A program made the position numbers and the translations under genes. Below the pieces are notes generated by a model. It was given only the letters and a program-made list of their open reading frames with translations, was not told the origin of the DNA and made no database searches. Positions 1,429 to 48,074 of a stretch of DNA of 64,000 bases are shown here, piece after piece (the stretch's first letter is position 1; the number at the start of each line of letters is the position of its first letter). Origin of the DNA: Euptelea pleiosperma (lineage: Eukaryota > Streptophyta > Magnoliopsida > Ranunculales > Eupteleaceae); NCBI GenBank assembly GCA_035048495.1, contig CM068543.1, positions 31,993,096-32,057,095 on the forward strand, read 5' to 3'.

Positions 1429-4400
1429 TCATGGTTCCGGCCCATCAGAAGGATGATCAGGTGGAGGGGGCTGTTCCCCGTTCTCATTAGTTTCAGGAGG
1501 ATGATCAGGTGAAGGGGGTGCCTGTCCTCCGTTCTCATTGGTTTCAGGATGGAAATTGATAGGGAACTTTGTGACTCGGGGCTTGTCGGCCAAAATATTT
1601 CTCTGGACCCTATCGACCAACACCTTTTGGGGAGGTTCCTCTCTTAGCTGTTCATCATCATAATCGTTGTTCACATAGTAGCCCACTCTGATAAACTCCT
1701 GTCCCAGATAAGAGCAAGTCAACAGCAACACTGTCACGCCAATAATATCCTCTTCACGGATCTTTGACGGGTCAGGAGGGTCTGCCTGGCAGTCCAAAAA
1801 CATCCTGATCAGTTTTGATACTATAAGCAATTCAAGAACAGAAAACCAATTTATAAAGAGTCAATGGGGATTGCCTGGAAGACAAAACGATAGTTGCCAA
1901 CATTGACAGGTCCAACGAGCACACTCTCTAAGAGTTGGTCATAAGTCTCATCCTCAGCAGATCCTACATAAACAAGTTTCCATTCCAAATCTGAAAGAAA
2001 TGACAAGGCAAAAAATTGTTACAAACTGGCAAAGATATCAAAGCAGCAACAGAATTTGATCAACCACAGAGCTGACTCAAACTTGAGCTTGATATGACTG
2101 GACAAACAAAAAACATAATAAATAAAAATTTGAAAAAAAAAAAACACAATTTAATTGGACAGTTCTTCGGATCAGTGGGTGTGTCCAAGTGGCAAAGGCA
2201 CATGATTTGAGATGAAGCGCTGTCTCATGGTAGATTTTTCGAATCAAATATCCATGTCAAGTTAAGCTATAAATATGTTTAGACTTGTCCTACTCTCACT
2301 CCTGAATTGTGTTAACACGTGAATGGAGCAGCCTCATGATAGCTGTATTATTTCCTTTCCAGTCAGAGAGAGAGAGATTTGCCTTCCCGAGGATATAATA
2401 CAGCTGTTAGTCGAGGCAAATATTAATTCCGTCAAGAGAAATATTACTCGAAAAGATTTTTATCTAAAATGACTGACATATATCCACACACTTGTCTGTG
2501 TCATTGTAATAGCTTTAAGTTAATAGCAGTTAACTTTGTTCATAACTTAATATGATAATAAGAATAAGAATCTATAACTAATATATATGTACGTATTTAT
2601 GATAGAAATAAATGTTTTCATTCTCTTTAAAGAGAAAACCCTGCGCTCTTGGAGAAGGCAAAGCAACACGAGCCACAAGCACTAATTTTGGTAGGAGCTA
2701 TGGGATATGGTCATCATTATTCTTATTAGTCTTGTGACAGTAACAACTAACAACTTATCGCTCCTACTCTGTGCGGACATGGGGTCTTCTTCTTCCTTGT
2801 GCATTAGAACATGTGTGCAACAAGGATGGTTGTTGACTGTTGTGTACAAGTACAACCAATTAATTGCTCTCTTACTTTTCCTTTTTTTTGGATTATATTA
2901 TTTGAAGATAACGATCCTAAAATTGTGATTTAAGGAGATAATGAAATTCTGAATATTTTTAGTTGTTATGAATATAATCCATAACAATAAATTCTAGAGG
3001 AACCCATTTGCTCACCTGTCACCTGGCATCTTTGACTACACTGACTGATATAAAGCTTAAGATGGTTAGTCAGTTCTCCATTTTGGAGGAATTCAAAGAC
3101 AACTACCAACCTTGATGTGAATTAGAAAGCTATTTGCGATTGTAAATCTACTATGAAAAATGTAATATGTGATTGGTGTTAAATTTTGAAGGGTACTCCT
3201 ATGTAAATGCTCAGATTGCCCAAAATTGGGGGTATCTTAGAGATGAAAGAAGCTTTTCTCCAGTCCTATCAGCATCAAAGACTCAATGCAGCAAAGGTGA
3301 GGGTTCTCCTTCAAGGAATAAAAAACTAAATTATCTTGCTTTGACCAATGTATTAAATTTCAACATATTTTAACTGTTTCGGTTGTAATATTTTGCTTTA
3401 GAGGGGGTCGATACGAAACATTACATGTACTGTCGAAAACACACATTTTATTCATTTCAGTCCGAATCTCAATGAACAATATATTTTGATCAAATATTCA
3501 ACCCACAATTATAGAAACTCAAAATTCCAATCGAAATGTTTTGACCATAAGAAACATTTAATTGGAGCTCAAAAAAACCTTTAAAAACCTATTTTTTAAG
3601 TCTAAATCGATTCTCCTGTGCTAAATTAGTCCAATACAACAATCCCACTTCGAGGCGTTTGGGGAAAAACTTGTTAGAGATGTGGAAGTTGATTTTGATT
3701 GTGTTTTTGTTTCAATTCTTGCAGAGTATTTTTCATGACACATAAAGATGTGTATGGAGGAGATTTCGTTTGGCAGCGGGTCCTAGTCTTACAGGACAAG
3801 TAGAATCCAACTATAACTATTGTGGGTGCTCGGGGATAGCGGGCTGTCCCAATTGAAGTAGCCCTTGGTCGATATGGATGCAAATTAAACAGCCCAACCT
3901 AAGCCCTACAAGCTCAACCCAACCTTGGGCCAAGCATTTCCTACTTTCAGTTAGGCTCGGGATGGGATTTCAAAGCTCGACTAAAAGTTGGGCCAGGCTC
4001 AAGTTGAGGCTTCAAGCAACCAGACCTAAGTGACCAGAGCGTAGTGCGGGAGCGGGTGAGAGTGCGACAGCAGGTACGGGAGAGCATCGAATTCAATAAG
4101 GTCCCAAAATTGGGAGCGCCTCCAAAGCGTGTTATACATATCCAAAACCGGGTTTCCGTCCACTCAGGGCTTCACTCAAGCAAAGCAGAACTCTGATAAT
4201 GGAGGTCCATCAACAAAGTTGATGACGGATGACTGTGTGGGCCACGTGGCATAATCTTATATATTAACGACCATATGGATGTTTTTCCCTACTTTAGGTA
4301 GACCTACATACCAAAAATGAGCCTGATTAGTGATTTCTAACCTTTGGATCTTAGTACCCCAAATAATCATTAAAATCCATGACTAAAAATAGACCATGAA

Positions 4401-7400
4401 AAGGACTAATCCAACAAATTGAAATTACCAATCACGTTGAATTTTGGTGTGTAAGTCCATCTAGGGATCTATACGGCACTCAAATTGTGGTCCATTTCGT
4501 ATGTAAGAGTGTGCTACAAATTGTGGTCCATCATCAAGATTTGATGAGGCCCCTACAATCACTCACGTGCTGCCCCTTTATATATAAGGTAAGTCATCAA
4601 TTTCATCAAGAGGTTAAAAAAACTCTCCTGAAAGTTCCAACTTCCGCCCACCAACTCTTCTTTCATCCCATACCGACTCTCTCTCTCTCTCTCTCCACTT
4701 GGGGCAATTCCAAGGCAATTTCTCTCTCCGATCTCCTTTGTTTCTGTGTTCTCATATCTTGTTTTCCTTTCTGATTTTTGTTCTATTTTACAAAATCTTC
4801 AATCTTAGGTTTTTATGATTTGGGAACTTTTGAAAGTAACATCTCGTCCTGGATTTTAGTTGAGGGTTCAAATGCTCTGGTTCTATTTTTACCAAATCAT
4901 CTCGTCTGAGATTTGGGAACTTTTTGGGTGATGTTCATTGAAATGTATAATTTGTCATGAGATCGTGGAAATCTATTTTTACGAAATGATCTCTGATGAT
5001 TCAAAGCTTTTTGCAACTGCCATCTCCAAAACTTAGGATCACAAACTACAACTCAAGGGAGTGCGATTTGGAAGCGAATCCGTACTCGAACCGCGGACTC
5101 GCGGTTTGAGTCCGGGATCGGTATCCCTTTAGGTCAGTTCTAGTTACTAAGAACCAGACCCAACCCGAGCCTAACCTCTATTCTGTATATAATATATCTA
5201 AAATATTACTCATAAAAACTTCTTTTTATTCTCACCTAGCTTTTGTGTGATAATTGTAAACCCAATCTGACTAACCCAACTTAGCCTAACTAGGCTCAGG
5301 CATGGTTGAAAGTTTTTCCCAAAGCTGAAAAGTTTCACTCAAAGCCGGATTGTTTCGCTCGAAACATTTCAATTTTGGCCTAGGAAGGTGCAAGAAACCT
5401 ATCTGTTTCAAGTTTCGGTCCAACTATGCCCAAACTCAGTCTGACTGAATCTGAATAGTCGAGTCAAATCGGTCCAAGGCAAAGAGAGAGAGAGAAGAAA
5501 CCCAACTTTATAAACCCTTAACTTGTTCAATTCTAGTTTGTAAAAAGAGAAGAGGAGGGAGGCGTACCTAACTACTTGTTGCATGCCTTCTTTCTACTAG
5601 CTACTGTTGCATGCTGCTCTTCTTCTTCTTTAGGTTCCGTTCCACCCAATTTCAATTAATTTCATCAGAAACCATTGAAACGTTTTGGTTTCATCCATTT
5701 GGTTTAGTCCATAGATGAAACCAAAACAAAACTGGGTATTTTGAACCATGGGCTCAAGCTAGAGATGAGTAACTTAGGTTGGGCACATGGGGGCTCAGGC
5801 TCAAGTTTGGTTGGGCTTGGGTTAAGTTGTCCAAACCTCAAGTTAGGCGTGAACTAACCCCCAACCTGCCTAAGCTGCACCCTTACGGGCCAGTGTTTTC
5901 TTAACGTGGTACATTGCACAAAATATTTGAAGGAGGTGAGACTACAAATGCAAAGACTTTTAAAGGAGAGGTTGCTGATGAGCAAGGAAATGAGTAGAAT
6001 TAAGAGTGAGTTTTGAGAGGTAATGATGAAGTAATTGTGTTGAAAGGTTGAAACAATACAATTCATGGACAATTGAGATTCCAGTGCCATTAGATTGTCA
6101 CTGCATAGATTAAGACAAACTACAGAGCTGTATGGAAATTCTCTTGTTGATCATGGAATATAAAGTTGAGGAGATCAAGGACACCAAAACCAAATTTCCA
6201 GCATTCGATTTGAGAGGTGGGTGGCAATTTATTAAGTGCTGAGAAGTTGGATGCTGCTACGAGCAATAAGGCTGTAAACAAGGCACTTCACTAGCCAAAG
6301 CCTTGAGGCGTAAGCCTCACGCACAAGCATTTTTTATGTAGATAAGTATTTAAATATATTAAATGCAGCAAAAATTCAAAAAAAAAAAAAAAGCATACTT
6401 CCAAGTTTCATATTTCCAATTCCAAGTCCCAGAAAACAAAGGAAGGAGTGAAGGTGGTGTGAAGAAAAAGAAGAAGAAAACGAAGGGGTGCTGGATTGCA
6501 GAGGAAAACAAAGGAAGAAAAAGGTGTGAAGAAGAAGAAGGCAGCAAAGCGGTGATGGACTGCTGAAGGAGGAGGTGTACAAAACCTTGAGACATTACTA
6601 TTTTTTGCTTACGAGATGCTGACTGGAGACATTGGTTGCTGCACATTGGGCCCTTCAATGCTGGTCAGAGACATTGAAGACGAAGACGTTGGTTGCCGGC
6701 TGCATGTTGAAGACGAAAGTAGAAAGAAGACAAAGGGGCTGGACTGCTGGGTCCCTTTTGAATATAAAACTTAGGGCTTTTTTATTTGGGTCAAGATCCG
6801 CGAACCAACTTTTTGCAATCATAATTTCACTAATGCTCTCGCGTGTTGATTCCAAGAATCCAACGGTGGTTGTGTGTGCTAAGCTAGCATTCACTAGATT
6901 CACTTTTTGTCAAAGCACAATCACCGTTGGATTCTCAGAATCCACGCCTGAGAGCATTAGTGAAATTATTAGAGCAAAAAAGTTGGTCCTCAAATCCTGG
7001 TCCTTTTTATTTTTATATCTTATATAAACGACACCTTTTTTCAATATCTTGACATTCTTTTTTTAATTCTTTTTAATGATTTACCAAAAGATCACCTCAA
7101 GACCGGACTTTTAAATTATTGAATATTTCTTATAAGATGTCCACGAAGCGAAACTCTCATTTAATCATTTGAAGTCTTTTACTACTTGTCCTAATATCAC
7201 ATTTTCTATTTATAAACTTCAATTCAATAATGTATATTACCCATGTTGTATTGTCCTGAATTGGTCATCTCAATTCTCAACGAGTAAACAAGGTATTTTT
7301 TGGAAGTATCACAATGTTGACAATGATGGCGGGTTGCTGACCTATTTGAGAGTAGTGATTTCAATCTTAATACTCTTTATCCTTCTCACATAAAACACAA

Positions 7401-10259
7401 GTTTTTAAGTGTTTGTTGCTCTAGCATTTTTGGTTTACCTATTATAGAAATGTAGTTAGTTGGAAACACTTCCGACCTATGTAACAAGGATGTCGATGTC
7501 CGACGCGGCAACCTAAAAAATCTGATACGGAGACACATCCGTAATATACTTATTAAAATATATTAATATAAATGAATGCTTAAAATTATTAATAAAATAA
7601 TAAAAAATAGAAAATAAAGCAGAAAATATTTATTGGTTTATTATTGTATGGAGGATGGAACACACCAACACGCTTTTAGAAATCAATTTTATATTAAAAA
7701 TTATTAAAACAAGGGATGACACGGCCAGAAGTGTCCAGATTTGTGTCGGGAATTGTCGACACGCATATTCGGGTGTCCAACACAGCAAAAAACCCTAAAA
7801 GTGCAGTGTCCTTGTTACATAGCTTCCAACTAAAGCTGCCAAGACCATGTATGTCATATTCACCAGTATAAATAAGAGGAAGATGATTTAAATCAACTTC
7901 AATCGGCTTTTTTTAGCATAGAAGATAAATGGGTAGGGTATGTCCAAAAAGAAAAGGAAAAAAATTGAAAACAAATTTTCATATGTTTGGCTTGTATACG
8001 TGGCTGTATAATCGAGGCTTAAGCCTCGATTGTGTCTCAAGCAACAATTGAGTAAGGCGTAAGCCTCTTACAAACTAGTCAAGGCTTAAGCCTTGAAACC
8101 AAGGCCCCAAGCCTTGCTTTGAGGTATGAGCCTCACACACCTTTAGGTGGGATTTTTAAAACAATGCATAACATTGAATCAGGGGCTGAATCCTATAATC
8201 ATTAATAAGCAGCACTTTTATTAGGGCCCTGGCAAGATGGCCACAGGCGCGGGAAGGGGGTGTACGAGGCAAAGATCTATGTGGATGTGACCTCCCCGTG
8301 TATTATGCAATCTTTATTATAAGATTATATAGTTAAAGTCATATGATCATGATCATTTTCATATATCATTATTACATATTTTAGGGTATTATGCTCTTAC
8401 ATACCTAACCCAACATATACAAGAGCGTAATTAATCTTCATTTTACATTCCCACTAGTCATTTATATTTCTTAAGGTTTCAACGAAAATTTCCACAATAT
8501 TCCCATTCTTTCCCTGAGAAATTACAATAATTCCACATTGTTAAAAAATATTTCCATGAAACATTACCATTTCTAGGCTAACCAAAATATACTTCAAAAC
8601 CCTTGGATTTGACACTCTTTTGGTTGTAAAGGTAGTTACATCATAGCTTGGGAATCAAACGCATCAAATGATCCTTAGAGATCTGCAAATATTGTGAAAA
8701 TATTAAAGAATCGTCCTTGGGCCAAAGAGGTTTGTGCAATCATACTCATTGGGTGTCAATGCTAAAGCCATCCTGTTGACCAATGGTGTGTATTGATATT
8801 CACGAAAGCGACCCATAGTCTCCTTTTCCTTCTTAATGCAATTTATTTGCTTATAAAATATAAACCACAACTAGAATGTTATTCTTTGTCAATTGATGAT
8901 TTGCATATCAATATTCCATGTTTGACAACTCGCTAATACAAAAATCTCAACATACATTAGAACCCTACACCATTGATCAAACATCCGTGAGTATCAAAGA
9001 GTGTCAACATATGTGCCTGTTATAGTTGGATAACTCACCGAATTAAAGTAATTTTTGTTTCTATGGTTTTTAATAAGTACGTGTTTAAGTAGTTCTTCCC
9101 AAGGTTTGAAAGGGGCCATTATAACGGACTGAGGGAGTTAACGTTTTTTCCGTTATAACAGCCGTTATAACAAAATATAACTCTCAGGGGCAAAAACGGA
9201 AAATAACAGGAAAAATTCTGCTGAAATTCAAAATTGGAACAAAAACAAAAAATTACGGAAATTACGGCCGGTTTTTTCAGAAAATAACAGCCATTATTTT
9301 TTAGCGTTTTAACAGTACATAATGTAACGGGGGAGGTCTGAATCCGTTATAACGGCAGTTTTTTAAACCATGGTTCTTCCTAAGGAACTCATGTTAATAA
9401 AAGTACGATATATTGGGAGTAGAAACTATTACATTTAGTAGGTGTCTCTCCTTATAGGAAGATGAGTTAGACTCCTCAAAGAGTTACCGATTTTACACTA
9501 TCGAGAAAGGTACTTTATCAATTCTCACAACCTAATCCTTCATCAGGTTACAGGGGTTTTTTCATCTGCAATCAGAATAAGACTCCAATGGAGTGAAGAT
9601 CAAGCTCCTTTGGAAGAGGTTGATTAATCTAATGTGATCTCTTGGGTATCGAGAAAGGTGTTGGGTCCTTGGAGGCTTGCAAATATCCTCCCTGACCATA
9701 CATGCACAATCTATTAGTAGATGTGGACAATTCATTGATCTATGTACTTAAAAATGAGGTTATAAAACCTTCCAACAAGAGCAATGATTTTTTTGGAGGG
9801 TAAGCCGGAGTAGAACTCCCGAACACGTGATTGAACTACACCACCAGACTATTATCAATAAACCAGCTAACTATTTCAAACGTATTCTGTTATAAACAAT
9901 AGAACCCTCAATGCTACAGAGATCTTTAAATTGCTTAACATTTCCATAATTTCCAAGTTTAATTTCTACTTCAATTGGAAAATAATTAGATGTCTATGCA
10001 AAAGTATCACAATATCACAAAACCTAACAAACAAATTTCATCGTTCTGTAACCCTAGCTACACCTCCAATCCACAAATCATTAAAAAAAAATCAGGAAAT
10101 ATCAAAATCAAGATTCTACGAGAAATAGGGGAAAAGAGAAGAAACTATACCGTCTTTCAGAGGAATCAAGCACTCATAAGAGATCTCAAACTGAAAAGGG
10201 TTGAGAAACGCCGCGGGATTGTCTAAGACGGTCACGTTAGTTATATTCACGGCGCTCAT
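1429..10259 (-). CDS. ASF1: Histone chaperone ASF1 (anti-silencing function 1), three exons, complete
   Basis: Nuclear chaperone that hands H3-H4 dimers to CAF-1 or HIRA during replication, repair and silencing. Exons on the minus strand: 10259-10151, 1990-1875 and 1785-1429, giving 193 residues; phases agree (108+1, 2+114, 354+stop). It starts [15 protein letters not shown], and the immunoglobulin-like core runs to about residue 155 ([11 protein letters not shown]). Family histone-contact residues fall at their usual numbers: D54, V94 (in GVTVLLLTC) and R108 (in [13 protein letters not shown]). The tail is acidic and proline-rich, with two related [18 protein letters not shown] repeats. The start is the only ATG that gives the family N terminus. 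Intron 1 is 8160 bp, unusually long. Intron 2 (1874-1786) begins GC instead of GT, since no GT lies where homology needs the junction. Length matches plant ASF1 (about 190-220 aa). The reading frame is intact, so the gene is probably functional. Confidence 0.95.
4222..4475. repeat. Foldback MITE of the family tandemly repeated at 12.4-13.8 kb
   Basis: Shares the blocks CCACGTGGCA, TATGGATGTTT, GAGCCTGATTAGTGATTT and, inverted, AATCACGTTGAATTTTGG with the 377-bp units at 12408-13760. Ends are approximate and no clear TSD was found. Confidence 0.5.
4677..4695. repeat. CT microsatellite
   Basis: About nine perfect CT dinucleotides inside ASF1 intron 1. Confidence 0.9.
6821..6969. mobile_element. 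Foldback MITE in ASF1 intron 1
   Basis: Two arms of about 55 bp face each other: ATAATTTCACTAATGCTCTC at the left and GAGCATTAGTGAAATTAT at the right, each followed inward by ATTC..AGAATCCAACGGTG-type sequence. The loop is about 40 bp. Non-coding. Superfamily not assigned, because no clear target duplication was found. Confidence 0.7.
7477..7822. mobile_element. hAT-type non-autonomous element in ASF1 intron 1
   Basis: Inverted ends CTATGTAACAAGG and CCTTGTTACATAG. Near-perfect 8-bp duplication CTTCCGAC (7469-7476) and CTTCCAAC (7823-7830). The inside is rich in GTGTCC/GGACAC blocks flanking an AT-rich centre. No coding capacity. Confidence 0.75.
9100..9374. mobile_element. hAT-type MITE, copy 2 (CAAGGTTTGAAA family)
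   Basis: Exact 8-bp duplication GTTCTTCC (9092-9099 and 9375-9382). Ends CAAGGTTTGAAA and TTTAAACCATG are inverted, as in 675-916. The inside contains repeated CCGTTATAAC motifs in both orientations. 275 bp, non-coding. Confidence 0.8.
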
Positions 10260-10943: not shown

Positions 10944-11366
10944 ATTACTTTTAAATCAGGTGGTGTTAAAAAAGATCAAATTTTAGTATCATCCCTACTG
11001 TAGCACGTCATATGTGCATTCAAACCACTGGATGTCTTTTGAAATTTGTGGGCAATGATCATGAGTAGGGGTGTCAATCCAGCCCTACCCTGCCCTTTTA
11101 AAGCCCTGAAAAGAGGGCTTTTTTTTAATAAACTTCCAGCCCTTAGGGCCAGGCCGGGCCCAAATATGCAAGGCCTTTCTAAATAAGGACCTACCTGGCC
11201 CTTAGCAAATCATCTTTGTTATATTTACTATTTTAAATTCTATTTTATAAAACAACACACATAATGCATCTTTTTTTTTTCGGAAAATTTTCGAAACGAA
11301 CCCGAATTTTAGGGTATTTTCCTAAAATATCCGTATTTTTGTATATTTGTCAAAACAAACCTAGAA

Positions 11367-11588
11367 CGCCGAACCGTTGGGCGGATTTTAAAAATACCAA
11401 AATTGCCCTTGGAATAAATGAGAATGTTGGCGGTGCAAAGATACGCCAAACAGTATGGCGTATCGCTTAGAATATCGCCTAACCGTCTGGCATTTTGCTT
11501 GGAATATCGCCATACGGTTTGGCGGTTTCTGAATGGATACGCCAAACGGTTCGGCGGTTCCTTTTGTTATACGCCAAAGGAAAAACTC
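11367..11588. repeat. Left subterminal palindrome array, 32-bp period
   Basis: 17-bp palindromes of form CGCCNNACNGTNTGGCG start at 11367, 11444, 11476, 11508 and 11540, with a half site (CGCCAAAGG) at 11572. From 11444 on the spacing is exactly 32 bp, with 15-bp spacers that often end in ATA. Placed between the MULE terminus and the PMD gene, it probably binds a protein as a dimer on one face of the helix (about three turns per repeat). Confidence 0.9.
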
Positions 11589-11679
11589 TTCCGGCGACTT
11601 CCTCCGCCTCCTTGTCCGCTGAAAGCCCGTCGTAACTCGGTGGTTTGTGCTCCCGAAGAAACTTTCCGGCCCCTCAGGT

Positions 11680-11979
11680 AAGTCAAATATTTTTACATCT
11701 TGGTAACAGTAAAAAAAAATTTACTGTTAACCAACCTTTTTTTTTTTTTAACTTTTCACTGTTAATATTTTTTTACTTCTCTAACTTTTAACCCACATTT
11801 TTTTACTCTAAAGTTGGGGTTAAAATTGTTTGAATGGAATCATTGTTGGTGAGGATGGTCTTTATGGTGAAGAGATCACCTTAAAAAAAATTCAGATCAT
11901 TCTAAGATCTGTAGAATGGTTTACAAGTTGAAGAATCCGTGGACCGTCAATTGTATACCTGGGATCTTTTCATTTGCTG
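11680..11979. other. MULE left-end spacer
   Basis: T-rich sequence followed by a block (11830-11960) that matches the inner part of the MITE pair at 38388-39179 (GGTGAGGATGGTCT, GGTTTACAAGTTGAAGAAT). No gene is seen. Confidence 0.5.
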
Positions 11980-12293
11980 AAGCGGCATTTTTGGTAGTCA
12001 CCACTGCCATCTGGGCGCACTGACCGCATGGATGTTTATCCCACCCCTTAATAGACATTCGTACAAAAAATCAGCTTGTTGAATGATTTTTAGCCGTTGG
12101 TTTTAGTACTAAAAAATAGTTGCATTCAACGGCTATAAGAGCGCCTCAAAATTTTCTAAAAAGTGTTAAAATCTAATGGTTATAGATTATCAATCAAGGT
12201 GATTTTTGGTCTGTATATCCACCAAGGGGTGGGATAAACATCCATGCGGTCAGTGAACCCAAATGGCAGCGGTGACAACCAATAGTGCTGATT
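11980..12293. repeat. Foldback MITE inside the MULE
   Basis: Inverted arms share GGTAGTCACC, CTGCCAT and CTGACCGCATGGATGTTTAT on the left, with complements ending near 12293. A partial copy of the right arm follows at about 12290-12370. A relative lies at about 49390-49650. Confidence 0.6.
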
Positions 12294-12407
12294 TTTGGTC
12301 TGTATATCCACCAAGGGGTGGGATAAACATCGATGCAGTCAGTGAGCCCATATGGCAGCGGTGACTACCAATAATGCTGCCTCCGCATGCTCATGCTCTA
12401 CTTACTG

Positions 12408-13760
12408 GACACAATATGAGCCACGTGGCACACTCTTAGAGGACTCTGACTATATGGATGTTTGGTCAATCCCTAAGTGGACTTACAAACCGAAAATCAG
12501 CCTGATTAGTGATTTATAGGCATTGGATTGGACTTGTTTTCATGGGCTGATCTCAATTGTGGGAATTTGAGCAGTATTTGAGGTACAAAAATGCAACACT
12601 TATAAATCACTAATCAGGCTGAGTTTTGGTTTGTAGGTCCACCATGAGATAGGACAAACATCTGTACATTCATAGTCCTGTAACGGTGTGCCATGTGGCT
12701 TATATTGTGTCCCTGTCATTTTAGATCTGTCAATGGAGCCCGATCCTAAAGGAGAAAAAAAAAAAAAAGCAAAACTCTTAAGATGACACAATATGAGCCA
12801 GGCACACTCTTAGAGGACTCTGACAGTATGGATGTTTGGTCAATCCCTAAGTGGACCTACAAACCGAAAATCAGCTTGATTAGTGATTTATAGGCATTGG
12901 ATTGGACTTGTTTTCATGGGCTGATCTCAACTGTGGGAATTTGAGCAGTATTTGAGGTACAAAAATGCAACACTTATAAATCACTAATTAGGCTGAGTTT
13001 TGGTTTGTAGGTCCACCATGAGATAGGACAAACATCTGTACATTCATAGTCCTGTAACAGTGTGCCATGTGGCTTATATTGTGTCCCTGTCATTTTAGAT
13101 CTGTCAATGGAGCCCGATCCTAAAGGAGAAAAAAAAAAAAAAAAAGCAAAACTCTTAAGAGGACACAATATGAGCTAGGCACACTCTTAGAGGACTCTGA
13201 CAGTATGGATGTTTGGTCAATCCCTAAGTGGACCTACAAACCGAAAATCAGCCTGATTAGTGATTTATAGGCATTGGATTGGACTTGTTTTCATGGGCTG
13301 ATCTCAACTGTGGGAATTTGAGCAGTATTTGAGGTACAAAAATGCAACACTTATAAATCACTAATTAGGCTGAGTTTTGGTTTGTAGGTCCACCATGAGA
13401 TAGGACAAACATCTGTACATTCATAGTCCTGTAACAGTGTGCCATGTGGCTTATATTGTGTCCCTGTCATTTTAGATCTGTCAATGGAGCCCGATCCTAA
13501 AAGAGAAAAAAAAAAAAAAAAGCAAAACTCTTAGAGGACACAATATGAGCTAGGCACACTCTTAGAGGACTCTGACAGTATGGATGTTTGGTCAATCCCT
13601 AAGTGGACCTACAAACCGAAAATCAGCTTGATTAGTGATTTATAGGCATTGGATTGGACTTGTTTTCATGGGTTAATCTCTATTGTGGAATTTGAGCAGT
13701 ATTTGAGGTACAAAGGTCAATGCCTAGAAATCACTAATCAACCTGATTTTAGGTTTTAAG
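12408..13760. repeat. Tandem array of a 377-bp foldback MITE, about 3.6 units
   Basis: Units begin with GACACAATATGAGC at 12408, 12785, 13162 and 13537, the last one partial (spacings 377, 377, 375). Each unit is itself an inverted repeat: CCTACAAACCGAAAATCAG on one arm, CTGAGTTTTGGTTTGTAGG on the other. Each unit also ends in a poly-A tract of 14-18 bases that varies in length. Near-identical units imply recent amplification. The open frames here (12600-12791, 12974-13168) are repeat shadows. Confidence 0.9.
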
Positions 13761-14082
13761 GTTGACTTATGGCTGACTTTTTTATTGGGGCAATTTATAT
13801 GATGAGGAGATCATCCCCACCAAAAATCAGCCATCGATTCATCTTTTATGTGGATACGCCAACATAGGGGCCAAAAAAGGGGGTATAGGGGTCCCCAAGC
13901 CTGATCCTTTTTCTTTTTATTGTTGATTTGAAACTCATATTTGGGCTGATTTATCTTCCGTGTGGGTACATTGATTTATCTTCTATGTGGGTACATTGAT
14001 TTATTTTCCATGTGGGCATATGAAAAAAATGTCAAATATAATAGTTACAAATCACCACTTAGACTGATTATTGATGTGAAGC

Positions 14083-16444
14083 ATGGCATACATTGTTAAC
14101 GATGGTCGTATTCCGGGTGGTCCCACTACCCCTGATGTTCAAAGTGATCGATTACGTCATCGATGTAATGACATTTGGAGTGGCAAGGTTAGTATTTTAT
14201 AAATTTTTTATTAAGTTCTAAATTATTGTATAATATGATTAGGAGTTATCTCTTATATTATAATAATTGATGTAGGTGGATTATAGTGATTATCGGGCAC
14301 GTTTTCATGGGAGATGGGTTGATAATTGGGGTGAGTTGTCACCCGCTCAGCTTGAGTTAGTAACACAAGCAGGTTTTGGTTATTACCATCATCTTCGATG
14401 GTATAACACTGATCTGAGTTTGTGTTATTGTCTTGCTGAGCGTTTTTGGCCAAAGACATGTACATTCCATTTTCCTTTTGGAGAGATGTCTATTATACTA
14501 GAGGACACTCTCCATTGTCTTGGTTTGAGTATTGTTGGTCGTCCTCTGATTCTTCCTCCTTCTGAGGAGAATGAGGACTACACATCACTTTTGATACGTT
14601 TACTGGGTGTCCCGCCGGAGGATGAAGCAAGATCAAAACATGGTCAAATTAAACTTAGTTGGCTGCAACAAAATTTTGCCGTATTACCTCCAGAGCCGAC
14701 TCAATATCAGGTAATATTTATAATCATTAATGAATATAAAATAATAAATTAATGTCACACTCGTGCTTATATAAAATAATTGTGTTTCTTTATTGTAGAT
14801 CGAGTGTCACACTCGTGCTTATTTATTAGCACTGTGCGGAAACACTATGTTTCCCGATGGCAGCGGCAATAGGGTTTCAGCGAAATTGTTACATTTATTT
14901 GAAGACTTCAAAACACGGGCGAATATGCGTGGGGGGCTGCGGTCTTGGCATATTTGTATAGACACTTAGCATGTTTTTCTTTGAAGGAGAAAAAAAGCCT
15001 TACTGGGTGTATTGTCCTCCTTCAGGTAATTTGTTTTCAAATTATTCAACAATTCATTTATTATTCGATACATTTTTATTAATATATTTTAATCTTATTT
15101 ATTAAGGTATGGGCACACGAGCATTTTCCATCTGTTGGGAGACCTATATCTAATCCGGAAGCACGTACGTTTCCACGATTCTTCAGATGGATGATGGGTA
15201 ATAGAGTATATAATAGTGATCCTACCCATAGTGTGCCATTATATCGTCAAGAGTTAGACATGTTAACTCGAAATCACGTAAGTAAAATTTTAGTATTAAA
15301 ATTTTTATTAATTAAAAATTGTTAATCTGATTTTTCTAAATTTTTTATTTTTCAGGTTATTTGGCTTCCCTATTATCCCATATCTGATGATGCTCTACCG
15401 ATATTGCGGATGGCACGGGATGCTAGTCTTCATCGTGCATGTGCTATATATTTAGACACCGCTGAATTTCATCCGGCAGATCGATGTATGCGACAATTAG
15501 GCCTGCACCAAAATATTCCAGTGTCTCCCTTATGTTGGTTGAGAGCAGGTAAAAAGACTAAGTTTGATATGTCGCGAGCGATATCAGATTGGATGAATAG
15601 GTTTGAGCAATTTCGAGTGGTCGATGAAGTTTGCACTAACTTACAAGGTAAACTGCAATAACGTAATTGTTTAAAATTAGTATTTATTATTCTCAGATAA
15701 TAATGTCTTACATAATTTGTATTGCAATTATTTGAGCAGATGAGAATTTTGAACAATGGTATGGTTGTCCTCGTATCTATAATGTGAGCATTCAATATCA
15801 GGAGCCAAGATATATGCCAAGGGGATACTCGGATGGCTTGCTTGATTGGTATAGGTCAACAAATGAATATGAGGTAATTCACAGATCTATAAGTCTTTTT
15901 ATTATATTTTAGAATTTAATATATTAATAAAATATTTGGTTTATTTTTATAGGCGGCGTATTTGTCAAATGTGATCACAGATCTACATCTTGAGCTTCCT
16001 GTTAGTGATCGCATTTCGATCTCTATTGAGAGATTGAGGCGGGACCCACCCAGTAAATTTTTCCCACAGCATGTTGATCCGCCTCCTCAGGCCCCTTTTG
16101 TCGTTGTTCGACAGTTTCCTCCACATCGTCATCCTCATCAAGGTAATCAAGAAGGTGGTGAGTGGGATGATGTGTTTGTAGATGATGATCAAGAAGGTAA
16201 TGATCAAGAAGGTGATGATCCACAAGAAGGTGATGATGTTCAACATCAATCGGCATGTGATGTAGGATCATCTTCTGCCATACATCATCCATCGACGCCG
16301 TCGCCTATTATACCTCCATCCCATGTGCCAATAGAACCATCTCAGGTTGAGCAAAGATTCCCACAGAGAGAGAGACTAATTAGAGGGGCATTGGAGTTAT
16401 TAAAGGGTGGGAGGAGTAAGAAAGGTAAGAAGTGTAAGCATTAG
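14083..16444 (+). pseudogene. MULE-borne plant mobile domain (PMD/MAIN-like) gene, 7 exons, one frameshift
   Basis: PMD (PF10536-type) proteins such as Arabidopsis MAIN and MAIL1 act in the nucleus in transposon silencing and gene expression; related genes ride on transposons. Exons: 14083-14187, 14276-14710, 14799-15025, 15107-15277, 15356-15647, 15740-15873 and 15953-16444. All introns are GT-AG and about 80-90 bp. Family motifs: FHFPFGEMSIILEDTLHCLGL in exon 2 (14475 on), AYLLALCG and AWGAAVLAYLYRHLA in exon 3, and MRQLGLHQNIP in exon 5. The last exon encodes a D/E/Q-rich low-complexity tail (EGDDPQEGDD) and ends basic (GGRSKKGKKCKH). Lesion: exon 3 is 227 bp although both neighbours are in phase 0, and frames switch at about 14905, so one base is missing. 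Otherwise open, about 617 codons. Function on the MULE is unknown. Confidence 0.85.
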
Positions 16445-17527
16445 ACTGTGGGGAGTTTTCTTTTGTATTTCTTATATTATAGCTACATATGTTGGGTTTG
16501 TTGACTTTTATTATCATTTTTTTAATCACTTCATATTGGGTTTGAGCGTGTTTAGGGTGGGATTCCCTCCACATTAGGATAGTTTCAAAAATTTATACCT
16601 CCATAAGACCAAATGTTGATAGATAACTGTGGTCCACATGCAGACGTGGGACCTACATGCAAATGAGTTAATGGCTGATTTTTGGCGAGGTAATCTCCAC
16701 ACCATAGAGATCATCCTCGCCAAAAATTAGTCATTTTTAAAACTTCGAACCCTATCTAATATGGACCTTTTTTAACGGGGAAAATGAACGGTTAAATTTT
16801 TTTTTTTATTTGCAATCCACTTTTCACAAGGCTGCAAATGTTGGAATGGGCTGATTTTTTGTGTGGTTGATATCCATCTTGAAAGGAATATCATGATCAT
16901 CAAAGATTAACCATTAACTCATGTAATTGTGGGCTCCACCCCACAAATCATATAAAATAATGATAAATTCTTATTAAAAGATCCTAGGATAATATCCATT
17001 CTATGTTCACACAAGATACATTCTGAAATTTCCATGTCTCAACCATGGATCACCTATTGAAAGTCAAATGCTTAACACATGCTAAAGACATTAGACGTCA
17101 TTCCCGATCTCCTCGTCATTTTCGTCTTCATCCATGATCGTACCAACAACTTCAAACGTCCCTTCTTCGTCTGAAAGTTAATCGGTATAAAACCGTGAGC
17201 CGGAGCCTAGTAACAAGCAACTACATGGTAGTAGTGATGGCATATCTCATAACTACAGTCAGTGTTACTTACCTTATGATGAAAGACGTTTACCGATTTG
17301 AGATTCAAAATACTCACAAGCTAAAAATTTACAAAATTACCCTAGGGTGCGGGTCAGGGTATTACACATACTCCAAGTTGAAACTCCTCCACCTGCAAAG
17401 AAACCACTCCGACGCTCAAGTTAGATTATGTAGTGAAAAATAAGACTTTAGAAAAGATATCGTACCTTTTATTGTAGTCATCTCTTCTGTAGGAAATATT
17501 TTTTTTTCTTCAAATAAGGCTTTATTT
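16445..17527. other. Spacer between the two convergent MULE genes
   Basis: Holds 3' flanks of both genes and, at about 16620-16930, MITE-like pieces (GGCTGATTTTTGGCGAGG, GATCATCCTCGCC) related to 38388-39179. No further gene is seen; the frame at 17195-17443 has no recognisable domain. Confidence 0.5.
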
Positions 17528-19736
17528 TCAAATTGGATTTGTACAAGTTGATCGGTTATGTCCAATACCACCACAACGACTACAATGTAGTGGTCGTACT
17601 TCTCGAATGTCGGTGTTTCGTCGATTTACCTTAGGACGACCAGGACGACGTCGAGTCAATGGTGGTAATATTTGCATTGAACTCTCAAAAGAATTTTGCA
17701 ATTGATATGGGCTTGGGATTCCTTCCATACAAGTTGCATAAACTTGTTGGTACCTTTCAACTGATAGTTCAGGAGGACAAAATTGATAAACATCCCATCT
17801 TTTGTATCTAATTGCAGCTATAGCGTGTGGACACGGAATCAAAGTGTCCTGCCATTCTCCACATGTACAAGTTCTGTTATCTAAGTTTATCACTTCATCT
17901 CTTGATTTTTCATGATCTTTAATCTCAAATTTTATGTTATCAATAGCCAAAATGGTCATAGTTCTTTTTTTATTTTGTTATCAATTTCTTTATTAGCAGT
18001 TGGGACAAGTTGTGTTGTCCATTTTTTGCTTCTCTTCATTCTTTTTTCCATACATTTTATTATTTTACACCTAATTCTATCTAATAATCCTGTTATTGGT
18101 TTGGAACGCAGTTTCTTAATCCATGCATTAAAGGATTCTGCAAAATTAGATGTTAATATCTTATGTCTTGGAATAGGAGAATGAGCTGTCGCCCAATAAC
18201 TTAAGTTGTGTGACTGTTGATTACCATTAATAATCCATTCAAAAATTTCTAAATTCTCATTTTTAATGGTTTGTAAAATATTTTCACAATCTATTAAATT
18301 ATATGCTTTGGCTGCTCTCATTAATAACTTACAAAACATTGGTTCTTTATATCGTTTTTTTAAATTTTGTTCAAAATGTCTCATACAGAAAAAATGGTAA
18401 TGTGAAGGGAAACGATTAGCAACAGCCTGTATTAGTCCTTTTTGTCTATCAGAAATAAACGATAATTGAGAATCCACAGGTCTAATAGCCATTTCAAAAT
18501 AATTTAAAAACCAATCCCAAGTATGTTTATCTTCAGCTTCAACTACTGCATATGCCAATGAAAAAGTACCACCATCAGGATCAACAGTAGTAGCTGCAAG
18601 CAAGATACCTTGATATTTTCCCTTTAAAAATGTACCATCTAATCCTACAATAGGTTTGCATCCATTTTTAAATCCATTAATACTTGCTTTAAAACAAATA
18701 AAAATTCGTTCAAAATTTCCATTTTAGTTAGTTTTAAGAAAACAAAAACTACTAGGATTTGTTTCTAAAATGGTATGACAGTAATGATCCATACTCCTAT
18801 AAGCCTCTATTATACAACCATGAATGTCTTCTAGTGCTTTCTCTCTAGCTTTCCAAGCTTTGTTATAGGAGACTTCTACCCCATATTCGCGTTTCATATC
18901 ATTTATAATTTCTATTGGATTATAAAATTGGTTATCAGCTAAACGACCTTTAATTTTTTCTTTTATCCAATTAACAGTTGCTTGAGGATGATCGACTGAA
19001 TCACTCCTCCCTAAACATGTGTGGCTATTGTTAAAAGTTATAATGCTAAACATGTCACCATTAGCCATTCTTTTAGCATATACACGCCATGGGCAATTTG
19101 GATCATCACATGTAACTATAACTTTTTCTTTATTATTTATCACATATTTTACTGTAAAATTATCTTTTACTGCTAAATTTAAAATTGAAAGCCTAAATTG
19201 AATTACATTATTATAAACTTTACCAATATATATAGCATTCACATTAACATTTGTTGGTGATGAGCAATATCCATAGGCTTGCGGATCATCATCTGTGTCT
19301 TCTTCTTCATCATCAACAAGATTTTCATTTTCATTTTCATCATCTACAATCGAATTGTGGTCATCAGTTCGAAATTGATTTGATGAGCTAGGCTCACCTT
19401 GAACACTTGTGTGACCATAATTCGATCGATTTTCAAAAGTAATATTTTCAAGTGGTATTGGACAAACATAAAAAATTATATATGGAGAAGTTAAATTAAT
19501 GTCAAATATATGTTGTAAAGATTGATTGTAAACAATGTCAATCATATGTTTTTCTGAACCAAATGTAATAACTGACCGTAGGATAAAATTTTGCTGAATT
19601 TCACATTGCATAGCAACTTTCTCTCGAAATTCTGACAACGCCCCGGCGACTCGAATAACATCCGTTCAAATCCATCAACATATGTTTCCCCTTGTAGTTG
19701 GCCTCCGTATCGACAAATAATCGCTTTTGCCATCAT
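17528..19736 (-). pseudogene. MuDR/MURA-type transposase of the MULE, three lesions
   Basis: DDE transposase that would bind the element ends and cut. From the N terminus: MAKAIICRYGGQ start (19733; another ATG at 19736), an acidic linker (about 19270-19380), a MuDR-type DNA-binding region (about 18900-19150), and the catalytic core with VGLDGTF (about 18640), SDRQKG (about 18448), CMRHFEQN (about 18380) and NFAESFNAW (about 18130), which supply the expected D, D, C/H and E residues. A SWIM zinc finger (CTCGEW...CPHA, about 17850) and a C-terminal CCHC knuckle (CSRCGGIGHNRSTC, about 17560) follow. Lesions: frameshift near 19663, in-frame TAA at 18726-18724 between DNA-binding and catalytic parts, and frameshift near 17957 at an A-run. 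Catalytic residues remain, so decay is recent. Confidence 0.87.
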
Positions 19737-19999
19737 TTCTAATTTTGAAAAAATAAAAAAATTGTAGGTAATGAATTGTACAAAATATGAGGGAATTAGA
19801 AGAGATTGAGTATAAGAGAATTTGAGAGAACAATTGAGAGTTTGAGAGATTGAGAGAGAACAATTGAGCCAAGAGGAGTAAGAGTGAATTTAAATTAAAC
19901 CTTCCAACGGATACATTCTTCAACGGATATATTTTTAACGTTAAAAAAACGGTCAAATTGGGCTGTTGGTGGAAAGAATTGGCGAGGGTCGTTAACTGC
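19737..19999 (-). promoter_or_regulatory. Transposase upstream region
   Basis: Lies between the right palindrome array and the transposase ATG, and carries GAGAGATTGAGAGAGAACAA-like purine repeats. Presumed promoter and leader; no clear TATA box was picked. Confidence 0.4.
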
Positions 20000-20237
20000 C
20001 GCCGAACCGTTTGGTGTGAGTTATAAACTATCGCCGAACGGTTTGGCGTTCTCTTTTAAAAGTCGCCATACTGTATGGCGATATTTATCAAGATACGCCG
20101 AATGGTTTGGCGAGTTTTATTAGCTGATGCCGAACGGTTCGGCGACAGTTAATAACTCCCGCCGTTCAGTTTGGTGAATAGTGAGGGCAAAACTGCCATT
20201 TCCTTACTTTCCCGAACATACGCCGATCGGTTCGGCG
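20000..20237. repeat. Right subterminal palindrome array, 32-bp period
   Basis: The same 17-bp palindrome starts at 20000, 20032, 20064, 20096, 20128 and 20160, all exactly 32 bp apart. One more copy at 20221 is nearest the terminus. Spacers vary freely while the palindromes keep CGCC...GGCG, so the motif rather than the whole repeat appears conserved. It lies about 265 bp upstream of the transposase start, in its promoter region. Confidence 0.92.
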
Positions 20238-20332
20238 TCCTAGGTTTGTTTTGACAAATTTTAAAAAATACGGTTCCTTTTGAAAAATACCATTAAACTT
20301 AGGTTTGTTTCGAAAATTTTCCGTTTTTTTTT

Positions 20333-42016: not shown

Positions 42017-43559
42017 TGAAATTACACTGATCCATTCTCTTTAATTCAATATACCTAGAAGGGGGGGTTGATTAGATATTTAAAATTAATTATACCTATA
42101 CAGTTTTACTGGTCAATGGTAGATGAACAAAATCGCATGCCTTAGTTGTTTGATAAAAGATTATCACAACCGACTCAAATCGAATATACCTCCGCGGTAT
42201 ATTTTCTTTTTGTCATTTAGTCTAATCAAGATAGATAGCGGAATACAAATAAACAATCGCACAAGACAAGAGATTTTTACGTGAAAATATTAGTCAAGGA
42301 GAAACCATGGGACTACGTCCAGACGAAAAGTGTCACTAACTGAAAAGTTAAACGAAACAATTAAATGTTACTTACATAGCACCGTTGCAAATACAGCTTC
42401 CAACCATAGCCAAGGCCTACTGCCGATATGTCTACGTCCTTTGAATCAACGTTACGAATCCACGCGCGCCTTTTTAGCCAAGAAGCCTTGTCCGCTTGTT
42501 CAGTTTGGTACACCCCAAACCTACCGTCTATTAGCTCATCCAATCTTAATTCTCAACACTCCCGTCTTTGCAGAAGGTGAAGGATTCAGTACACCATGAA
42601 CCCTAAGTTGCTCAAAAGGTGTTGAGTCATTCTGGTACACTCAGGCTACTAGGTCGAATATATGAGTGAAAGACCTAAGTTGAGGAATAGATCAAACACT
42701 TAGCTTTGATCAAGAAGAAGAACAAGCTCACAAGATATGAATGGAAAATAAGCTTATTGCTCTTCAAATGGACACTCCAATAAATAAAATATTTTCTTCT
42801 CTCTCTTGAAGATTGAGTCACTTTGTGTCTCTGTGTGTTTTTAGAGAAGGTATAGAAGGACTGTATTTATAAAATTCGTGTCCCTAAGTCATGTGGGACG
42901 TGGGATAATAGAACCAAGAAATTTGGATCTGAGAAAGACTGAGTACGTGCAAGGTCCAATCGATTGTACTCTGGGTCCAACTAATTGGGCCATGTCCAAT
43001 CGATTGGGTATGAGTGTCCAATCGATTGGCCTCAATAAGTTTCCTATTTCGTAGGCTCCGATTGATTACACAGAGTTCTCCAATCGATTGGACTCAAAAA
43101 AGTTTATGTCCCGAAGACTCCAATCGATTTCACAGAATCTCCAATCAATCGGGCAGAAATAAGTTTCTGCTTATTAGCTTCCAATCGATTAGGTATAATT
43201 GTCCAATCGATCGGACTCTCCCATTAGTCAATATCTTTGACTTAGACTTGGGTCTGTCTAATGACTAGGTTTGACCATTATATTTTATTCATTTTAAACA
43301 TATTCTTATGGCCACTAAGTCACTTACCTTCCTAATCGAGCGTACACGATCTTTAACTGACAGATGAGCAGTTATTCAGATGACTCCAGTCATCAACCGT
43401 TTGATTCTTGTTGTCTCTGTCTTCTAGTCTTCAAGTAGTCGGCAAAGTATGCGTACCACGACATCTCTACACTACACTAGTGCTCGTAGGAAGGGTTACA
43501 AGAATATTTTTATGTCAAACGGAATCTTTGCCAAATTAAATATGAAAATATTCCTTACA
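42017..43559 (-). repeat. 3' LTR of the nested non-autonomous element
   Basis: 1543 bp, colinear with 46507-48074. Contains about ten CCAATCGATTGG-like palindromes at 42956-43220. Confidence 0.9.
42956..43220. repeat. CCAATCGATTGG palindrome array in the LTR
   Basis: 12-bp palindromes start at 42956, 42977 (degraded), 42996 and 43018, then at wider spacing to 43220. The early copies are 19-22 bp apart (two helical turns). The partner array is at about 47440-47735. Confidence 0.85.
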
Positions 43560-46506: not shown

Positions 46507-48074
46507 TGAAATTACACCGGTCCGTTCTCTTTAATTCAATATACCTAGAAGGGGGGGTTGATTAGGTATTTAAAATTAATTATACCTACACAGTTTTACT
46601 GGTCAATGATAGGGGAACAAAATCGCATGCCTTAGTTGTTTGATAAAAGATTATCACAACCGATTCAAATCGAATATACCTTCATAGTATATTTTTTTTT
46701 CGTCGTTTGGTTTAATCAAGATAGATAGCGGAATATAAACAAACAATTACACATGACGAGATTTTTACGTGGAAACCTTAGCCAAGAAAAAATCACGGGA
46801 CCACGTTCAGACAGAAAATATCACTAACTGAAAAGTTAAATGAAACAAAGGTTACCTACACAGCACAGTTGCAAATACAGCTTTCAACCTTAGCCAAGGC
46901 CTACTGCAGATGCATCCACGTCCTCTGAATCAACACTACGAATCCATGCGCACCTTTCCAGCCAATAAGCCTTCTCTGCTTGTTCAGTTTGGTACACCCC
47001 AAACCTACTGTCAATCGGCTCCTCCGATCTTAATTCTCAACACTCCCGCCTTTGCAGAAGGTGAAGGATTCAGTATACCCTGAACCCTAGGTTACTCAAA
47101 AGGTGTTGAGTCACGCTAGTACACTCAGGCTACTAGGTCGAATATATGAGTGAAAGACCTAAGCTAAGGAATGGATCAAGCACTTGGCTTTGATCAAGAA
47201 GAAGAACGAGCTCACAAGATGTGAATGGAAAACAAGCTTATTGCTCTTCAAATGGACACTCTAATAAATAAAACATTTTCTTCTCTTTCTTGAAAATTGA
47301 GTCACTCTGTGTCTCTGTGTGTTTTTAGATAATGTATAGAAGGGTTGTAGTTATAGAATTCGTGACCCTGAGTCATGTGAGACGTGGGATAATAGAACTA
47401 AGAAATTCGGATCTAAAAAAGACTGAGTACGTGCAAGGTCTAATTGATTGTACTCTCGGTCCAATCGATTGGGCCATGTCTAATCGATTGGCTATGAGTG
47501 TCCAATCGATTGGCCTCAATAAGTTTCCTGTTCCGTAGGCTCCAATCGATTACACAGAGGTCTCCAATCAATTGGACTCAAAAAAGTTTCTGTCCCGAAG
47601 ATTCCAATCGATTTCACAGAGTCTCCAATCGATCAGGCTGAAATAACTGTCTGCCTATTAGCTTCCAATCGATTACATAGAGTCTCCAATCGATTGGGCT
47701 ATGTCCAATCGATTGGGTATAATTTTCAATTGATCGGACTCTCCCATTAGTCAATATCTTTGACTTAGACTCGAGTCTGTTCAATGACTAGGTTTGACCA
47801 TTATATTTTATTCATTTTAAACCTATTCCTATGGCCACTAAGTCACTTACCTTCCTAATCACAATCTTTAACTGACAGATGGGTAGTTACTCAGATGACT
47901 CCAGTCGTTAACCGTCTGATTCTTGCTGTCTATGTCTTCTAGTCTTCAAGTAGTCGACAAAGTATGTATACTACGACATCTCCACACTACAATGGTGCTC
48001 ATAGGAACAGTTACAAGAATATTTTTATGTCAAACAGAATCTTTGCCAAATTGAATATGAAAATATTCCTTACA
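46507..48074 (-). repeat. 5' LTR of the nested non-autonomous element
   Basis: 1568 bp. Contains about twelve CCAATCGATTGG-like palindromes at roughly 47440-47735, a couple more than the partner LTR, which fits its extra 25 bp. Confidence 0.9.

Follow-up and report, generated by a model that had tools for sequence, protein, structure and literature searches.

A 64,000-nucleotide stretch of the Euptelea pleiosperma genome (GenBank assembly GCA_035048495.1, contig CM068543.1, positions 31,993,096 to 32,057,095; hereafter the window) carries at 11281-20323 a degraded copy of a ~9-kb Mutator-like transposon (Mutator-like element, MULE) in which a row of 17-bp palindromes, set at a constant pitch of 32 bp, lies inside each end. 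The same arrangement recurs in other copies of this family, is retained in short gene-less derivatives, and appears with different palindromes at an equal pitch in related transposon families; all copy and family data come from this one genome of 613 Mb. On balance, we think that these arrays probably serve in cis as docking tracks for a dimeric protein encoded by the element, most likely its transposase, bound in phased rows.

Twelve full 17-mers in the window score 14-17 of 17 against the consensus CGCCRAACNGTTYGGCG, and no other position in the window scores above 13. Four form the left array (11444-11556, starting at 11444, 11476, 11508 and 11540) and six the right array (20000-20176, starting at 20000, 20032, 20064, 20096, 20128 and 20160), so that all three steps on the left and all five on the right measure 32 bp, while a further copy lies nearer each terminus within the terminal inverted repeat (TIR), at 11367-11383 and 20221-20237. 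The initial annotation had reported this spacing, the two outer copies and, on the inner side of the left array and in phase with it, a half-site (11572-11588, CGCCAAA retained), and its 13 positions (12 full palindromes and the half-site) all hold. Absent from its list is a counterpart on the inner side of the right array, likewise in phase (19968-19984), of which only the GGCG half is left (TTGGCG retained). A chance origin of the palindromes was rejected, as 20 simulations under a first-order Markov model of the 64-kb window produced a mean of 0.1 hits at a score of 14 and none higher. In a region set around the left array, lag 32 ranks first of 88 lags by autocorrelation.

The annotation had also held that motifs persist while spacers differ, and this is what we observe. 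Identity between units is 0.77-0.80 for the motifs, compared with 0.39 for the left spacers (shuffled 0.33, upper 2.5% point 0.42) and 0.47 for the right spacers (shuffled 0.32, upper 2.5% point 0.40). The right spacers thus have something in common, and similarity between left and right spacers is at the shuffled level (0.37 vs 0.37). An origin of the palindromes as RNA hairpins was considered and set aside: the region from 10 to 22 kb has no Rfam match at gathering thresholds, and inspection by eye indicates that palindrome positions 5 and 13 change independently, mostly from CpG to TpG or CpA and not as compensating pairs, the only paired change in the window palindromes being at positions 6 and 12 of the copy at 20064.

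As proposed from the outset, the element is a MULE with two genes and one array upstream of each; the transposase domains, the 9-bp target duplication and the long TIRs all fit. The TIRs (11281-11389, plus strand, and 20215-20323, minus strand; termini fixed by comparing copies) are 107-108 bp long, and 11283-11389 is 82% identical to the reversed 20321-20215. The transposase gene (17528-19736, minus strand) was recognised in three pieces by the Pfam domains DBD_Tnp_Mut (E 1.6e-10), MULE (E 8.3e-15) and SWIM (E 1e-6), and is disrupted by one stop and one frameshift. The intron-containing Plant Mobile Domain (PMD) gene (14083-16444, plus strand) matches PF10536 in two exon pieces (E 9.5e-17 and 4e-6, the latter under the curated cut-off). 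Each gene reads inward from its own end. The flanking target duplication TTTTTTTTT (11272-11280 and, identical, 20324-20332) is weak on its own because it is a run of nine T; a 9-bp duplication is present in all 18 copies for which both ends are available (nine, including the window, directly and nine with the start moved 2 bp outward).

Copies of the family were sought with 301 bp of the left end, including the array. Of 97 candidates, 40 were scored, yielding 40 primary places with identities of 70-100%; these were inspected as 20 copies with 10 kb of sequence, 19 as ends, and the window itself. In each of the 40 the TIR palindrome is accompanied by three or more array palindromes, and 109 of their 115 left-array steps are 32 bp, in a set whose most distant member is 70% identical. 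The remaining six steps are 31 or 33 bp (one each in L031, L035, L036 and L040, and two in L032 that cancel each other). At the right end (18 copies including the window, with 3 of 21 right ends outside the sample) six array palindromes and the TIR palindrome are present in every copy, 89 of 90 array steps are 32 bp, and the final step is always 61 bp. Lengths were compared over 30 of the 40 left ends, near-duplicates having been dropped: the array keeps its length in 21, lacks exactly one 32-bp unit in two (L028 and L030, which stay in phase), is off by 1 in four and off by 6 in three, where the fourth unit is substituted by other sequence. In these same ends the linker is unchanged in just two and downstream lengths drift too; across copies, the step between the TIR palindrome and the array takes values from 64 to 99 bp.

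The pitch was also assessed without alignment, by searching the genome for two exact motifs (CGCCRWACNGTWYGGCG) with any 2-32 bases between them. Such pairs occur at 268 places, and at none for a reversed-pattern control. Spacers of 2-14 bases account for two places (both 14) and spacers of 16-32 for three, leaving by subtraction 263 of 268 with a spacer of exactly 15, that is, a step of 32 bp. The paired pattern with spacers of 13-17 gave no matches in viral and prokaryote collections. The comparison suggested in the initial annotation, of whether the 32-bp phase persists in other copies as spacers diverge, therefore came out positive in both the 40 copies and the genome-wide motif pairs, and these copies, together with the gene-less elements described below, rule out an artefact of one copy.

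Internally deleted copies retain both arrays, both where the loss is on the PMD side (L009, L013) and where most of both genes is gone (L024-L027). The latter four short derivatives lie on one chromosome and have a common 9-bp flank, which suggests one insertion multiplied by segmental duplication, not four insertions. At the other extreme, five copies (L010, L011, L012, L014 and L017) have an uninterrupted 738-codon transposase frame, and three of these (L011, L012 and L014, on three chromosomes) are identical across the 700 bp compared; from the intact frames and the identical copies, we infer that the family has been active recently.

A query made from the outer 86 bp of the TIR, which is free of the array, matched sequences with an array in 39 of the 40 cases scored (of 537 candidates); 28 of the 39 were array copies already seen, four were known from a pattern hit or earlier fetch, and seven were among eight newly fetched. 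All 12 fetched pattern hits and 7 of the 8 fetched TIR hits are short gene-less elements, or miniature inverted-repeat transposable elements (MITEs). Their layout is TIR, TIR palindrome, usually six palindromes, ~135 bp, four palindromes, TIR palindrome and TIR; the step is 32 bp with few exceptions, and the linkers are mostly 90 and 65 bp, as against 61 and 77 bp in the window element. One MITE (L085) has fewer palindromes than the others. Both ends fall within the fetched stretch at 10 of the 19 MITE loci (L048-L052, L081-L084 and L086); in these ten, which measure 693-755 bp, the 9-bp flanks match without exception, and one pair is a run of T. The MITEs, which hold little beyond the TIRs and both arrays, evidently have transposed. 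The arrays thus travel with the ends in non-coding elements, and their retention in mobile gene-less MITEs makes it unlikely that they are promoter elements only.

The palindrome within the TIR appears to be a fixed anchor. At either end of the window element its start lies 86 bp in from the terminus, as it does at all eight further ends among the newly fetched TIR copies. In a related family described next (family B), whose palindrome differs, the offset is 86 bp at seven of eight ends and 85 bp at one. This common offset ties the TIR palindrome to end recognition.

Related transposases were collected with a 304-aa N-terminal piece (130 of 436 candidates scored), which gave 140 matches, including a well-kept family at 55-58% identity with 742-codon open frames and others down to 42%. 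The same piece found no protein relative at E 1e-3 among 349 candidates, and its single PDB match, at E 1, was considered chance. The upstream DNA of 17 related transposases was taken. The window motif is found upstream of four of them (L070, L071, L073 and L076; 63-81% identity), whereas those with other palindromes are 42-60% identical in the N-terminal piece: family B (L060-L066 and L068) has CGCCCTTTTAAAGGGCG, family C (L067, 60%) has CKCCGWTTCAAWCGGMG, and L074 (49%) and L075 (42%) have degenerate CGTTTTTTCAAAAAACG-like palindromes. Regions set around known arrays place lag 32 first in 10 of 10 cases. Since those regions had been chosen around arrays already seen, the test was redone on fixed 550-bp windows, where lag 32 ranks first of 88 lags upstream of 15 of the 17 transposases (a count in which L060-L066 are close copies and not independent), compared with 44 of 2000 random windows from the 64 kb outside the element. 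The two exceptions are L069 (rank 86) and L072 (rank 3); of the 15, L073 (z 2.71) is below and L075 (z 2.93) about at the 99th percentile of the control (2.92). Family B motif pairs occur at 312 places in the genome (control 0); one family B element measures 9388 bp with 8 equal flanking bases. In the family B element at L077, 5000 bases (2893-7892) read as N and mask its second gene. Family C has arrays at both ends, with an autocorrelation at the other end of 0.62, 0.61 and 0.58 at lags 32, 64 and 96. That other families bear differing palindromes at the same pitch favours a geometry set by a protein.

In some arrays, additional dyads lie between the palindromes. The longer-array spacers of MITEs L048-L059 are near-palindromic (ACTGTTAATAACCGT), so that dyads alternate every 16 bp, and family C (L067 and L078) has a second palindrome (GCCAAAACCATTTTGGC) at the 16-bp half-step. 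In the MITE arrays, 4.58 (longer array) and 3.25 of 7 spacer pairs match, vs 2.11 and 2.02 when shuffled. A 16-bp dyad spacing as a general rule was rejected, because in the window family the left-array spacers are not palindromic (2.39 vs 2.37) and the right are borderline (3.22 vs 2.41, equal to the shuffle maximum).

Sequence variation within the window family points in the same direction as the pitch, with reservations given below. The mean pairwise difference is 0.126 in motifs and 0.172 in spacers, and the CpG transition rate of the motifs, 0.021, is the lowest of eight compartments (the others range from 0.026 to 0.058). The 17-mer matrix was built from array words scoring at least 13 only, and the CpG analysis covered 14 of the 18 two-ended copies, the short L024-L027 having been dropped, with mutations common to several copies counted repeatedly. 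As a rough test on related copies, the low motif CpG decay fits selection on, or protection of, these CpGs.

Conserved pitch, free linkers, drifting spacers, family-specific cores and retention in MITEs are together what would be expected of a row of dimers encoded by the element. The likeliest binder is the transposase, with its DBD_Tnp_Mut and SWIM domains; given the fixed anchor and the MITEs, we place it ahead of an anti-silencing protein resembling VANC. A symmetric dimer would occupy each 17-bp palindrome through the half-site CGCCnWAC, and since the 32-bp step is about three helical turns, neighbouring dimers would sit on one face of the DNA and could touch. A regular row beside each end may then assist in bringing the ends together, with the single TIR palindrome, 86 bp from the cut site, anchoring the end complex. 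The arrays would on this proposal be needed in cis for mobility and perhaps also for expression or against silencing, as dimers bound upstream of both genes might regulate these or keep them unmethylated. More tentatively, and with somewhat less than even confidence, we suggest that a clade of plant MULEs may build a regular row or filament of an element-encoded dimer on 17-bp palindromes arranged at both ends in a fixed three-turn lattice of 32 bp. The lattice constant would be set by the protein and conserved across families, while the core would be an exchangeable address that changes with the protein, each family driving only its own copies and MITEs.

A number of observations weigh against the docking proposal. 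The copies are related by descent and the spacers of the window family are homologous, so that the step may be partly inherited. Motifs (0.126) vary nearly as much as the linker (0.138) and more than the outer TIR (0.093), the fourth motif of the left array is as variable as its spacer (0.225 vs 0.202), and change outside CpG is 0.025 in motifs (0.041 in spacers) compared with ~0.010 in coding parts. The outer palindromes are out of register with the arrays, by steps of 77 bp (left) and 61 bp (right), and the apparent anchor offset in the single copy of family C is 69 bp, its terminus being uncertain. The TIR copy L079 has no array in the fetched stretch, and upstream of L069 and L072 neither an array nor any of these palindromes was present in the stretch fetched. 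Among MITEs, a single step departs from the pitch in L049 (26 bp) and in L055 (43 bp), and L052 has five palindromes in place of six. Family B is looser than the window family: among 50 listed of its 312 motif pairs, the pitch is 32 bp in 32, 48 bp in five (equal to its TIR-to-array step), 31 bp in four, 30 and 33 bp in three each, and 36, 37 and 27 bp once each. At its other end, two clear palindromes at a distance of 63 bp accompany the TIR one, and the autocorrelation peaks at lags of 89, 31 and 63, not 32.

The alternative to be taken most seriously, though we regard it as rather unlikely, is that a regulator encoded by the element, perhaps the PMD protein, binds the arrays and removes host DNA methylation from the copies in VANC-like anti-silencing, the transposase using only the TIR. 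The arrays would then persist in MITEs because silenced MITEs cannot move, and the family-specific palindrome cores, the position of the arrays upstream of both genes, the low decay of motif CpGs and the presence of a PMD gene in the window family and in family C would all be accommodated. VANC proteins indeed bind short, tandemly repeated motifs that differ between related families (PMC5735166, PMC10398659), and a review raises the possibility that PMD proteins encoded by transposons counter silencing (PMC8616336). However, the VANC motifs described there are 8-9 bp long, and the main texts of both reports make no mention of palindromes, nor of spacing (PMC5735166) or periodicity (PMC10398659); moreover, the constant 86-bp offset of the TIR palindrome suggests end recognition.

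Binding of the arrays by a dimeric host transcription factor, as promoter or enhancer sites (MYB-like AACNG, E2F-like TTTGGCG) conferring cell-cycle or germline expression like that of the MuDR TIR, would also place them upstream of both genes; we nevertheless judge it improbable. The core AACNGTT carries AACNG, which we take to be the MYB core, on both strands, and the half-sites TTCGGCG or TATGGCG presumably fall outside the E2F consensus, which counts against such a factor. A precedent exists in the promoters and cell-cycle enhancer motifs of MuDR TIRs (PMC3310237), yet gene-less MITEs retain both arrays and the related families have other cores (TTTNAAA, GATTCAATC) at an unchanged pitch. 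To a functionless relic, in which one slippage event produced a 32-bp tandem repeat that was inherited and inverted duplication gave rise to the palindromes, we assign the least credence of all. Few ancestors stand behind all copies, unit losses are seen, the resemblance among right-array spacers exceeds the shuffled level (0.47 vs 0.32), and the partly palindromic spacers of the longer MITE array (4.58 of 7 pairs vs 2.11) fit inverted duplication. Such a relic is hard to square with motif identity of 0.77-0.80 beside spacers that fall inside the shuffled range on the left and exceed it only slightly on the right; with array length unchanged in 21 of 30 ends vs 2 of 30 for the linker; or with replacement of the palindrome between families at constant pitch.

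Other features of the window bear on the element or stand apart from it. A putative 5' splice donor, CAG|GTAAGT (11678-11679, plus strand), follows soon after the left array, and AGGTAAG is retained at this position in 31 of the 40 copies, so the left array adjoins what is a putative 5' UTR exon. Within the putative first PMD intron, 12407-13756 consists of a 377-bp unit repeated 3.6 times (96%), the number of repeats seeming to vary among element copies. The right TIR contains an internal duplication, TAGGTTTGTTTTGACAAATTT (20241-20261) and TAGGTTTGTTTCGAAAATTTT (20300-20320), with a separation of 59 bp; in MITE L084 one end is apparently shorter by about this distance, and its 9-bp flanks are still equal. 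Elsewhere in the window, two direct LTR-like retroelement copies (42956-43214 and 47461-47716) hold 8 and 10 near-copies of the palindrome CCAATCGATTGG, which has 18 window matches at up to 2 mismatches vs 2.4 expected. Its steps are mostly about 20-22 and 40 bp, making this a second, unrelated and roughly helically phased transposon palindrome array.

These arrays bear on the recognition and pairing of ends by MULE transposases and on how related families avoid driving one another. The genome offers a natural series of at least three palindrome types on one lattice, intact transposase frames (738 aa and 742 codons), near-identical copies, and MITEs of ~750 bp that may be minimal substrates, which makes end recognition, specificity switching and the requirement for helical phase directly testable.

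The initial annotation knew of no description of such an arrangement, and this stands in part. Subterminal motif arrays in MULEs are already known, from VANDAL/VANC and from Muta1; our searches of the open-access literature turned up neither a lattice of 17-bp palindromes with a strict 32-bp pitch that persists across families as the cores change, nor a paper containing the motif strings. Among the nearest known systems are the VANDAL elements of Arabidopsis, multi-gene MULEs in which a short motif, differing between related families, is repeated in non-coding and terminal regions; such repetition in non-coding regions is present in the window family and its relatives. Half of the VANDAL members have PMD and/or a DUF (PMC6446971), and the same source tabulates MULE groups with a PMD gene antisense to the transposase, an orientation matched by the window family and family C. 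In contrast, VANC motifs read YAGTATTAY or AGTTGTCC/AGTTGTAC and are not 17-bp palindromes, with no fixed pitch mentioned in the published descriptions available to us, and VANDAL TIRs are described as absent or short and degenerate (46-174 bp in PMC6446971), whereas the window element has TIRs of ~107 bp with a palindrome at 86 bp. In citrus MULEs, the accessible text of PMC4334395 reports degenerate subterminal motifs only.

Muta1, an active MULE of Aedes aegypti described as a type 2 Foldback element, resembles the window element in its 8-9 bp target duplications, palindromic terminal motif and subterminal repeats; it has nine such repeats per TIR, a variable number of which are retained in non-autonomous copies, and in the same study short tandem repeats are subterminal in 10 of 12 families with long TIRs (PMC5225508). 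The window element has a terminus that includes GAAAATTTTC, together with arrays. Yet in Muta1 12-bp tandem repeats with 3-4 bp spacers and a ~15.5-bp period lie within the TIR, whereas here 17-bp palindromes with 15-bp spacers and a 32-bp period, four and six per end, lie interior to it. Maize MuDR/Mu shares convergent genes and a transposase site and promoters near its ends (PMC3310237), within TIRs of ~215 bp (PMC2774946); its accounts, as available to us, describe one conserved ~32-bp transposase-binding motif, the MURA site, and no palindrome array, and the agreement between the length of that motif and the pitch reported here is probably a coincidence. Replication iterons are similar in pitch only, with no indication of a replication function. 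A parallel in mode of working only is offered by the ends of IS607-family elements such as IS1535, where cooperative loading of dimers onto helically phased subterminal motifs builds a filament that captures the other end (PMC6188088), although the bacterial serine transposase concerned is unrelated and its motifs are 9-bp direct repeats.

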